Shown piece by piece: positions 22,120-30,973 of a stretch of 39,451 nt of DNA. A program made the position numbers and the translations under genes. The notes below the pieces were generated by a model, which saw only the letters and a list, made by a program, of their open reading frames with translations, was not told the origin of the DNA and made no database searches. Position 1 is the first letter of the stretch. The number at the start of each line of letters is the position of its first letter. This DNA is from a bacterium. GTDB lineage: Bacteria; Patescibacteriota; Minisyncoccia; Phycocordibacterales; Zambryskibacteraceae. The stretch spans positions 64,369 through 103,819 of the forward strand of contig JAHFOF010000001.1 in the NCBI GenBank assembly GCA_023266935.1. Reading direction: 5' to 3'.

Positions 22120-22195
22120 TGGTGCGCCCGGCAGGAATCGGACCTGCGACCATCTCCTTAAAAGGGAGCTGCTCTACCGACTGAGCTACGGGCGC
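22120..22195 (-). tRNA. tRNA-Lys(TTT), CCA encoded
   Basis: GCGCCCGTAGCTCAGTCGGTAGAGCAGCTCCCTTTTAAGGAGATGGTCGCAGGTTCGATTCCTGCCGGGCGCACCA. Confidence 0.97.
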
Positions 22196-22428
22196 AAAAC
22201 TTTCTTCAGAAACTTTCGACCCGCAGCTGTCTTGAAATAAATTTCACGATTGCGAGCCTGTTCAAAGTTATCATACTCCTCTGTATATACAACTCTGAGA
22301 TTTTTTAGGTGTCTAGTTGATTGAGTATGACCACGCCTATGTTCTGCGAGTCTTCGTTTCAAATCATTTGTAACACCTTTATACAATTTGCCAACAGAAT
22401 CTTTAAGTACGTAGACCGTGTGATTCAT
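22186..22428 (-). CDS. Small GIY-YIG nuclease-domain protein; 3' end overlaps tRNA-Lys
   Basis: 'MNHTVYVLKDSVGKLYKGVTNDLKRRLAEHRRG...TR...VVYTEEYDNFEQARNREIYFK'; stop TAG is formed by tRNA nt 8-10. Confidence 0.9.
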   Translation of the reverse strand: MNHTVYVLKDSVGKLYKGVTNDLKRRLAEHRRGHTQSTRHLKNLRVVYTEEYDNFEQARNREIYFKTAAGRKFLKKVLRP

Positions 22429-22434
22429 GTTATA

Positions 22435-22492
22435 TCTACCGACTCCCGCCCGAACGACTGAAGCCGTTCAGTCGGGCGGGGAGCACGGGCGC
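22435..22492 (-). pseudogene. tRNA-Lys 5' remnant (nt 1-23) split by a 36-bp palindrome
   Basis: GCGCCCGT-GCTC (22481-22492, A9 missing) and AGTCGGTAGA (22435-22444) match the intact tRNA-Lys 5' end. Confidence 0.85.
22445..22480. repeat. 36-bp palindromic insertion in tRNA-Lys remnant
   Basis: CCCGCCCG-aacg-ACTGAA-gccg-TTCAGT-CGGGCGGG. Confidence 0.85.
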
Positions 22493-27969: not shown

Positions 27970-28440
27970 CTAAAACCCCAAATACTCCAAAATCTTTTCG
28001 ACAAAAGGGAGAGAATAGTATTGCTCTTCCAGTTTTTGTTGGAGCATCTCGTGTAGTTTTTCTACGTCAGTTTTTTCTCCAAGAGGGACGATGATGAGAG
28101 GCATAAACATTTTTTTAGAACGAAGGAGTATTTTTTTATGAGGATGTTCTTCATCAATCCAAAAAGAATGAATGGTGTCGTATGGATATCGTATGTTTGC
28201 TCGAGTAACACCCGCTTCATCGACGGTGATATGAATAGTTTCTGGGGGTCTATTTATAAAAAGGGAGAGAGAAAATGAAGCAACGATGATAAGGATACCA
28301 AAGATGATATTACCGAGGATTATGGCTGCGATAGCCACGGAAGAAGCCACAATGCCTACAGCCCAAAACCAATCCGAGCTTCGTTCTTTGTGTTCGTAGA
28401 TGTGTGCATCCCATTCGATTTTAAAGGTCTGCTTTGCCAT
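27970..28440 (-). CDS. Hypothetical membrane protein (two TM, PH-like C-term)
   Basis: 156-aa ORF with 'WFWAVGIVASSVAIAAIILGNIIFGILIIVASFSLSLFI'. Confidence 0.65.
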   Translation of the reverse strand: MAKQTFKIEWDAHIYEHKERSSDWFWAVGIVASSVAIAAIILGNIIFGILIIVASFSLSLFINRPPETIHITVDEAGVTRANIRYPYDTIHSFWIDEEHPHKKILLRSKKMFMPLIIVPLGEKTDVEKLHEMLQQKLEEQYYSLPFVEKILEYLGF

Positions 28441-28501
28441 ACAAAAATTGTAGCATAAAAGGTTTGATTAATAACCCTCTCTGTGGTTTGATAAGCGTAT
28501 T

Positions 28502-28561
28502 GGAGGAGTGGCTGACCACCGCCTACGGCGGGGCCTCGCCAAAGGCGATGGGTGGTCTAAA
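28502..28561 (+). pseudogene. tRNA-Ser 5' remnant (nt 1-24) split by a 36-bp palindrome
   Basis: GGAGGAGTGGCTGA (28502-28515) and GTGGTCTAAA (28552-28561) match the intact tRNA-Ser at 28818. Confidence 0.88.
28514..28557. repeat. Palindromic repeat, family A, inserted in tRNA-Ser remnant (36-bp insert 28516-28551)
   Basis: GACCACCGCCtacGGCGGGGCCTCGCCaaaGGCGATGGGTGGTC. Confidence 0.85.
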
Positions 28562-28569
28562 ACTAACCG

Positions 28570-28812
28570 ATGTACTTTGTATACATAATTCAAAGCGTTA
28601 AGACAAATCGATATTATATTGGGTACACAAACAATATTGAAAATAGATTAGCCCACCATAATTCTGGAGCATCAACTTATACTAGAAAATATCGTCCTTG
28701 GGTACTTGTTTATTCAGAAAAATTTCCAGATAAGATTTCTGCTTGGAAACGAGAGCGTCAAATTAAATTATTTAAAGGTGGTAATGCATTCAAAAAACTG
28801 TTAGAAATATAG
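28570..28812 (+). CDS. Small GIY-YIG nuclease-domain protein
   Basis: 'MYFVYIIQSVKTNRYYIGYTNNIENRLAHHNSGASTYTRKYRPWVLVYSEKFPDKISAWKRERQIK'. Confidence 0.93.
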   Translation: MYFVYIIQSVKTNRYYIGYTNNIENRLAHHNSGASTYTRKYRPWVLVYSEKFPDKISAWKRERQIKLFKGGNAFKKLLEI

Positions 28813-28817
28813 CTGTA

Positions 28818-28904
28818 GGAGGAGTGGCTGAGTGGTCTAAAGCAACAGTCTTGAAAACTGTCACCTGGGTAACTGGGTCGTGAGTTCGAATCTCACCTCC
28901 TCCG
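28818..28904 (+). tRNA. tRNA-Ser(TGA)
   Basis: GGAGGAGTGGCTGAGTGGTCTAAAGCAACAGTCTTGAAAACTGTCACCTGGGTAACTGGGTCGTGAGTTCGAATCTCACCTCCTCCG. Confidence 0.97.
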
Positions 28905-28908
28905 CAGT

Positions 28909-29133
28909 TTAGATAACTTCAACTTTGTATTTCTTCGAGACGAAGAAGAGGTAGATGATTTCAAGAAGCCCCATCGTGTTTAAAACGAGGATGGCGATGA
29001 ACCAATACTTTTGTCTAAGTTCGCCGGCTTTCCAGAGAGCGAAACCCTTCCAAACCAAGGACCAAACTATGACTAAAAATCCAATAAATGGGTGAGCTGT
29101 TAACCAGCGGGTAAATATGTTTATGTTTGTCAT
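28909..29133 (-). CDS. Small two-TM membrane protein
   Basis: 74 aa 'HPFIGFLVIVWSLVWKGFALWKAGE...WFIAILVLNTMGLLEIIYLFFV'. Confidence 0.75.
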   Translation of the reverse strand: MTNINIFTRWLTAHPFIGFLVIVWSLVWKGFALWKAGELRQKYWFIAILVLNTMGLLEIIYLFFVSKKYKVEVI

Positions 29134-30217: not shown

Positions 30218-30973
30218 ATGAATTTATCAGACAGAATAATTTTTGAAGATGACGATATCTTGGCCATAAACAAACCAGCCGGAATTGTTGTTCATAGTGA
30301 TGGAAAGACGGTTGAACCAAGTGTTTCTGAATGGTTGGTAAAAAAATATCCTGAAGCAAAGAATGTTGGAGAAATGATCCGGCTCGAGGGGGGTGACATT
30401 ATTGACCGCAGTGGGGTGGTGCATCGTTTGGATCGAGATACTTCAGGGGTTTTGCTTTTGGCTAAAACTCAAAAAGGGTATGAACATCTAAAAAAACAAT
30501 TTCAAGATAGAACAATTCAGAAAACTTATTATGCATTCGTGTATGACAATGTGAAAGAAGATCATGGGACGATTAGTTTGAAGATAGGCAAGAGCCCAAG
30601 TGATTTTAGAAAATATTCTGCGGGGCGTGGAGCGATGGGGGAGATGCGTGATGCGACAACTTATTTTCAAGTGCTTAAACGTGGAGACGGCCTGCCTGCC
30701 GGCAGGCAGGGATTTACTTTGGTTGAAGCGAAACCTAAAACCGGTCGAACACATCAAATCCGCGTGCATTTCACTGCCCAACAGAGGCCGGTAGTGGGGG
30801 ATAAACTTTATGCATCATCCAAAGAAAACATTCTCGGATTCAAACGCCTCGCCCTTCATGCCCGTCGAGTAGAATTCAAAGATTTAAATAATAACCCTCA
30901 AATCCTAGTAGCTGATTTCCCTGAAGATTTCTTAAATGCGTTTAAAGAGATTGGATTTGACAAAATAGTTTAA
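30218..30973 (+). CDS. RluA family pseudouridine synthase
   Basis: 'DILAINKPAGIVVHSDG', 'VVHRLDRDTSGVLLLAKT', 'PKTGRTHQIRVHF'. Confidence 0.94.
   Translation: MNLSDRIIFEDDDILAINKPAGIVVHSDGKTVEPSVSEWLVKKYPEAKNVGEMIRLEGGDIIDRSGVVHRLDRDTSGVLLLAKTQKGYEHLKKQFQDRTIQKTYYAFVYDNVKEDHGTISLKIGKSPSDFRKYSAGRGAMGEMRDATTYFQVLKRGDGLPAGRQGFTLVEAKPKTGRTHQIRVHFTAQQRPVVGDKLYASSKENILGFKRLALHARRVEFKDLNNNPQILVADFPEDFLNAFKEIGFDKIV
30691..30710. repeat. 20-bp perfect palindrome in-frame in the RluA-family CDS (LPAGRQ)
   Basis: CCTGCCTGCCGGCAGGCAGG, encoding G-LPAGRQ-G. Confidence 0.9.

Follow-up and report, generated by a model that had tools for sequence, protein, structure and literature searches.

Integrative elements that target tRNA genes use integrases and usually restore the 3' end of the tRNA. 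Phages T4 and T6 encode SegB, a free-standing GIY-YIG homing endonuclease from their tRNA region; it cuts within tRNA genes, is widely co-located in phages with tRNAs of many isotypes and drives inheritance of its own region, and the tandem tRNA amplification of T6 arises by recombination (PMC2988022, PMC13096335). In the fungal mitochondria of Allomyces and Glomus, mobile endonuclease ORFs in atp6, atp9, cox2 and nad3 bring a duplicated gene end that replaces the native end, which stays behind as a remnant; one example is GIY-YIG (PMC3630166). Insertions in rRNA genes of the Candidate Phyla Radiation (CPR) are mostly LAGLIDADG and intron-like, while GIY-YIG genes are sparse and were judged to lie outside spread by homing; tRNA is mentioned nowhere in the text of that paper (PMC11270868).

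The locus described here, a tRNA-Ser(TGA) gene in a 39,451-nt stretch of bacterial DNA (hereafter, the window), shares features with each of these systems. Like SegB, it has a free-standing GIY-YIG ORF next to a tRNA gene. Unlike SegB, which belongs to phage genomes and for which the consulted parts of those papers describe neither a split remnant nor a regenerated tRNA, it is chromosomal, encodes an 80-aa single domain, and comes with a palindrome-split remnant and clade-specific tRNA targets. Like the fungal ORFs, it lies within a host gene and supplies the gene end that restores it, leaving a remnant; in contrast to the fungal protein genes, their 3' (C-terminal) ends and their foreign, divergent copies, the targets here are bacterial tRNA genes, the end is mostly the 5' one, and a near-identical copy is accompanied by a palindrome. 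The CPR rRNA insertions share the CPR hosts, and several relatives of our ORF lie in 16S and 23S genes, but those insertions differ in being mostly LAGLIDADG, intron-like and within rRNA genes. As in integrative elements, insertion is in a tRNA gene and a duplicated piece restores an intact tRNA; here, however, the 5' end is restored and no integrase was seen between the tRNA copies. The suggestion in the original prediction, which knew of no described system like this, was thus too strong, as SegB (PMC13096335) and the fungal ORFs (PMC3630166) are precedents. In the open-access literature, to which our search was confined (subscription papers and preprints lay outside its scope), we found no paper on GIY-YIG genes at CPR tRNA genes, most other matches being to fungal mitochondrial genomes, and no description of the combined system, which unites SegB, fungal ORF and CPR-insertion features on bacterial chromosomes, at tRNA 5' ends, with a palindrome-split remnant. 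We consider it probable that the locus is a free-standing GIY-YIG homing cassette that would break a tRNA gene and restore the tRNA by duplicating its 5' end.

Nucleotides 1-24 of tRNA-Ser(TGA) are present twice in the window; in the upstream copy, a 36-nt palindrome separates the first 14 nt from the last 10 (Table 1). The order is native flank, split 5' remnant, ORF and complete tRNA, and remnant and intact copy are identical. The original prediction had read this anatomy exactly to the base, including the end of the remnant just before the D-stem GC and the lack of an integrase; its element of about 250 bp gave way to a measured interruption of 316 nt, from nt 14 of the first copy to nt 15 of the second. 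With up to one mismatch allowed, GGAGGAGTGGCTGA occurs at only these two sites in the window, and shuffled sequences are expected to hold none. The 88-nt tRNA has one copy at full identity in the whole genome, together with one 74% identical tRNA-Ser relative, and 28818..28905 is the sole copy of this isoacceptor found in the genome. Insertion leaves this functional copy uninterrupted, the tRNA being complete downstream of the ORF. The 80-aa GIY-YIG frame is the sole ORF read between the two tRNA copies, and no Rfam intron family matched 28300-29000 at E values up to 5. The ORF has no terminator, and a single promoter-like match, at chance level, lies inside it. The RNA fold of the whole remnant region is unexceptional (z -1.3).

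Table 1. Features of the tRNA-Ser(TGA) and tRNA-Lys(TTT) loci (window coordinates)
Feature	Position	Strand	Basis or remark
tRNA-Ser 5' remnant, part 1 (tRNA nt 1-14, GGAGGAGTGGCTGA)	28502..28515	+	directly 3' of native upstream flank; flank identified from empty sites
36-nt palindrome with two hairpins (CCACCGCC...GGCGATGG), inserted in the D-loop of the remnant	28516..28551	+	folding z -2.3
tRNA-Ser 5' remnant, part 2 (tRNA nt 15-24, GTGGTCTAAA), last base just before D-stem GC	28552..28561	+	direct reading
8-nt leader between remnant and ORF	28562-28569	+	direct reading
GIY-YIG endonuclease ORF, 80 aa, minimal single domain, UPF0213/SLX1-like fold	28570..28812, stop included	+	
5-nt spacer between ORF and tRNA	28813-28817	+	direct reading
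Regenerated complete tRNA-Ser(TGA)	28818..28905	+	ARAGORN; Rfam tRNA 63 bits
tRNA-Lys 5' remnant, part 1 (GCGCCCGTGCTC)	22481..22492	-	
37-nt palindrome CCCGCCCGACTGAACGGCTTCAGTCGTTCGGGCGGGA in tRNA-Lys remnant	22444..22480	-	
tRNA-Lys 5' remnant, part 2 (GTCGGTAGA), last base just before D-stem GC	22435..22443	-	
tRNA-Lys GIY-YIG ORF, 80 aa; stop codon TAG within tRNA-Lys 5' end	22186..22428	-	
Intact tRNA-Lys(TTT)	22120..22195	-	ARAGORN; same-genus empty sites

Empty sites were sought with the gene upstream of the tRNA-Ser remnant (27970-28440, minus strand) as the anchor. A genome of the same genus (G007, locus L024) carries the same upstream gene, an uninterrupted tRNA-Ser(TGA) and the same downstream gene, with no ORF, and in three others (G017, G023, G045) the upstream gene is followed directly by an uninterrupted tRNA-Ser. 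The upstream flank is kept by the remnant and the downstream flank by the second tRNA copy. Since the empty sites have these flanks around an uninterrupted tRNA, the insertion affects the tRNA gene alone. Overlooked in the original prediction, this anatomy is repeated in the window at tRNA-Lys(TTT) (22492-22120, minus strand); two same-genus genomes (G004, G006) have an intact tRNA-Lys right after the corresponding upstream gene, again with no ORF. The empty alleles proposed as a check are therefore present in related genomes at both tRNA genes.

All 4 GIY-YIG genes found in the host genome are located at tRNAs. One (L149) lies at tRNA-Asp with a 5' remnant and palindrome, and another (L148) is a mirror-image case at tRNA-Val, in which intact tRNA, ORF and 3' remnant follow one another. 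Three elements of this genome have a remnant whose last base immediately precedes the D-stem GC. The L148 remnant clearly differs from the intact tRNA-Val, making a foreign donor tRNA end possible at this site; for the window, a foreign tRNA 5' half was ruled out, as remnant and copy are identical. tRNA-Ser(GGA) (L181, G000:C4:76590-77202; minus strand, 330-160) is preceded by a palindrome-split remnant of itself in which the palindrome is near-identical, but the ORF is absent. In its place are ~20 nt that resemble the conserved end of the ORF, and from this similarity the site looks like a relic left by ORF loss.

Relatives of the ORF were found at 117 loci, drawn from sets of 61 and 397 genomes and from a scan of one collection, with hosts that are mostly uncultured and known from metagenome-assembled genomes; the loci were picked by similarity to the window ORF, and the proportions given below apply to that subfamily. 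Across the 117 loci, 54 tRNA or tmRNA starts lie in the 150 nt downstream of the ORF on its own strand, and none on the opposite strand. A few target labels, with distances of up to 300 nt, may be incidental, and no RNA gene was assigned at 35 of 116 relatives. In 37 of 47 loci, no more than 25 nt separate the end of the ORF from the tRNA start, and in 17 the stop codon falls within the tRNA. Where the ORF is followed by a tRNA, a 5' remnant of that same tRNA beat all 20 swapped-tRNA controls in 38 of 46 loci. Remnants terminate shortly before the ORF, differ from the intact copy at 22 of 980 nt (98% identity), and are nearly all interrupted by an insert. Their ends recur: the closest Ser relatives share an end at nt 24-25, three Tyr loci one at 27 and three Ala loci one at 35, within a family-wide range of nt 15 to 47. 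At some loci a 3' remnant additionally follows the intact tRNA, as in L093, where tRNA pieces 1-35 and 36-76 flank the ORF and a complete tRNA.

These observations bear on the refuting case named by the original prediction, an ordinary tandem tRNA array that decayed by chance; the small ORF between the copies would then be unrelated to them. Duplicated tRNAs in tandem are a real phenomenon, and one locus (L043) has multiple partial copies. However, the empty sites of closely related genomes, the recurrence of this anatomy across many tRNA isotypes, the 54 to 0 strand bias and remnant scores exceeding those of swapped controls all argue against ordinary decay, which we regard as extremely unlikely and, because of the recurrence, already refuted. 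The linkage of GIY-YIG ORF, tRNA and remnant that was to be sought elsewhere recurs widely. Together with the empty sites, this upholds the predicted arrangement, a module within a tRNA gene whose duplicated 5' part keeps the tRNA intact.

The tRNA-Ser ORF encodes a GIY-YIG protein (PF01541; E 1.8e-18, 67.1 bits against a Pfam cut-off of 22.6). Residues Y5, Y16, R26, H30 and E62 are invariant among 14 relatives, and we take these conserved Tyr, Tyr, Arg, His and Glu positions to be the active-site residues with catalytic roles. Structure prediction (mean pLDDT 90.9) places the fold closest to UPF0213 and SLX1, followed by I-TevI, and the nearest solved sequences and folds (1ywl, 1zg2, 7cq3) are UPF0213 or SLX1-type; UPF0213 structures carry no assigned function, and SLX1 is a eukaryotic partner-dependent branched-DNA nuclease. 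The 80-aa protein consists of the catalytic domain alone, with no recognisable DNA-binding domain. A phage origin of the ORF was rejected: phage matches were weak (best 48%, 11 records), and the one record inspected, Rhizobium phage RHph_Y65, has no annotated tRNA close to its match.

Nucleases of this kind are widespread in CPR, 53 of 61 genomes having a GIY-YIG match at E 1e-3. Such prevalence would fit a domesticated host gene, retained in tRNA leaders because it serves the host, for example in repairing tRNAs, in regulation or in defence against phages, rather than being selfish, as would the report that phage SegB amplifies tRNAs against tRNA-cutting defences (PMC13096335). Yet presence varies within one genus, host family does not predict the target, and the ORF-less relic shows that the ORF is dispensable in the same genome. 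We consider domestication very unlikely.

The relation of nucleases to targets and hosts was evaluated on a tree of 116 nucleases, which is built on few alignment columns and whose bootstrap is not settled. Target labels require 32 changes on this tree, compared with 59 for shuffled labels (minimum 52), the shuffling ignoring relatedness. Among 65 order-level loci, target requires 23 changes (46.8 shuffled, minimum 40) and host family 52 (55.7 shuffled, minimum 51). These counts suggest that nuclease clades follow the RNA target rather than the host family, and are supportive rather than final. Eight loci (L007, L076, L095, L101, L102, L108, L112, L115) form a well-supported nuclease clade located just 5' of tmRNA genes. 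The closest relative of the window nuclease, in a genome of another family (G041), is 71% identical, whereas the same genome pair shares 63% identity for ribosomal protein L19 and 39% for a neighbouring gene; we counted this difference as an indication that the nuclease may jump between hosts.

The inserts that split the remnants are a recurrent part of the anatomy unforeseen in the original prediction, as are the mirror-image cases and the tmRNA and rRNA targets. Most are palindromic (25 of 34 with folding z below -1.5), although those of L079, L097 and L125 show no excess folding. The Ser-type insert, CACCGCC(N3-5)GCGGGGYCYCGCC, occurs at 4 sites in 61 genomes, 3 of them within Ser-type remnants of different families. 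CCGCC-GGCGG palindromes in general are dispersed (18 sites, compared with 1 for the reversed control). A mere dispersed repeat was partly rejected as an account of the palindrome, since in the 61 genomes its specific double-hairpin form is nearly confined to remnants. Similarity among inserts increases weakly with nuclease relatedness (Mantel r 0.205, a value reached by 29 of 1000 permutations). The CCTGCCTGCCGGCAGGCAGG palindrome, which splits tRNA-Leu remnants in other genomes, is a generic dispersed one. A copy of it lies at 30691-30710 of the window, in frame within a protein gene (30218-30973). Two sister nucleases at tRNA-Ser(GCT) (L117, L126) have nearly the same two-hairpin insert in opposite orientations.

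These properties raise the alternative that the palindrome itself is the mobile unit, in a pairing like that of REPIN and RAYT, with a structure-specific GIY-YIG nuclease moving palindromic doublets that belong to it into tRNA genes, at their unpaired loops; duplication of the tRNA would then be a by-product. The prevalence of palindromic inserts, the recurrence of the Ser-type form in remnants, its ORF-less copy at tRNA-Ser(GGA), the correlation with nuclease relatedness, and a fold nearest UPF0213 and SLX1 all speak for it. Against it, the tRNA sequence on either side of the insert is the local tRNA's own, the Leu-type palindrome is generic and present within a protein gene, the clade correlation is weak, and three inserts lack excess folding. 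The protein is a GIY-YIG nuclease and not the RAYT (Y1 transposase) of a REPIN/RAYT system proper. On balance we find this alternative unlikely. Equally doubtful is a new type of mobile system, a minimal structure-specific nuclease with cognate two-hairpin palindromes that would recognise tRNA, tmRNA or rRNA genes by hairpin or cruciform and sequence, insert a palindrome in a loop and regenerate the target. If it is real, the pairing would be REPIN-like without a transposase and would explain part of the dispersed palindromic repeats of CPR.

The homing cassette has in its favor that the ORF lies outside any intron or intein, that occupied and empty alleles exist at one site, and that target tracks nuclease phylogeny over host phylogeny, albeit on few alignment columns. 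In the mechanism we propose, the minimal nuclease would break an uninterrupted tRNA gene in its 5' half, and the break would be repaired from a cassette-bearing chromosome or sister copy, with the 3' part of the broken tRNA as one homology arm. Repair would copy the tRNA 5' half and the nuclease ORF and rejoin near the original broken end. One locus (L004) carries a truncated earlier ORF end and tRNA nt 1-47, followed by a second ORF and intact tRNA; judged from this order it is a nested double invasion, and the arrangement matches the product expected if a one-ended invasion were completed by end joining. The palindrome interrupts both the direct repeat and the leftover target; it may be a repair scar or insert that destroys that target and breaks the repeat, or else part of the cassette, and its position (14/15) and nt 24/25 are equally possible insertion points. 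The ORF would lie in the 5' leader of the tRNA transcript, which, going by established tRNA maturation, RNase P trimming should tolerate or remove. Because the ORF is flush with the tRNA or borrows its stop codon, its loss could easily damage an essential gene, which would favor retention.

Several observations count against homing. The protein is a catalytic domain only, with UPF0213 and the structure-specific SLX1 as closest solved relatives; pure homing does not require the inserts present in nearly every remnant; remnant ends vary from nt 15 to 47; and 35 of 116 relatives lack an assigned RNA gene. In addition, the presumed target is still there in the intact tRNA, and the host must either tolerate or prevent self-cutting. 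A staggered insertion resembling transposition, with duplication of the target site and without homologous homing, would account for a duplicated 5' piece that is always the local tRNA's, hardly differs from the remnant and in most loci begins near nt 1. But transposases rarely make duplications as long as 15-47 nt or with right ends that vary, there is no transposase gene, and seg-type GIY-YIG homing enzymes leave 2-nt 3' extensions (PMC2988022). We judge staggered insertion to be clearly improbable.

Taken together, these results demonstrate insertion within the tRNA gene, 5' duplication, an intact tRNA, gain and loss, and target-linked clades, and the cassette resembles a widespread selfish gene that can enter tRNA genes and still leave them functional. 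In highly reduced genomes, essential single-copy tRNA genes appear to be settled repeatedly by a selfish nuclease that brings along the repair of its own damage. A homing cassette would extend tRNA-linked GIY-YIG homing from phages to bacterial chromosomes, with the tRNA restored at the end opposite to that of most integrases, and contrasts with the published view placing CPR GIY-YIG genes outside homing (PMC11270868). It would also provide a compact, clade-specific set of nucleases with predictable tRNA targets, and a testable case for the entry of palindromic repeats into CPR genomes.

Other relatives lie within 16S or 23S rRNA genes, or beside RNase P RNA. Five related ORFs (L009, L056, L059, L118, L133) are within 16S genes, near the gene's 5' end in L009 and some others, and no duplication was noticed in L009. 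Similar structures are found in Bacteroidota genomes (L043, L044, L045, L060, L064). In a Bacteroidales locus (L043, 1128-1817), several tandem tRNA-Asp copies, whose anticodon arm is replaced by the short palindrome GTCCCGAGTCCTCGGGA, surround the intact tRNA and GIY-YIG ORF. Finally, four loci (L116, L094, L079, L087) have, 3' of the intact tRNA, parts of the tRNA T-arm repeated in inverted orientation and then the tRNA 3' end repeated in direct orientation, a pattern that reads as if hairpin-primed repair had taken place.
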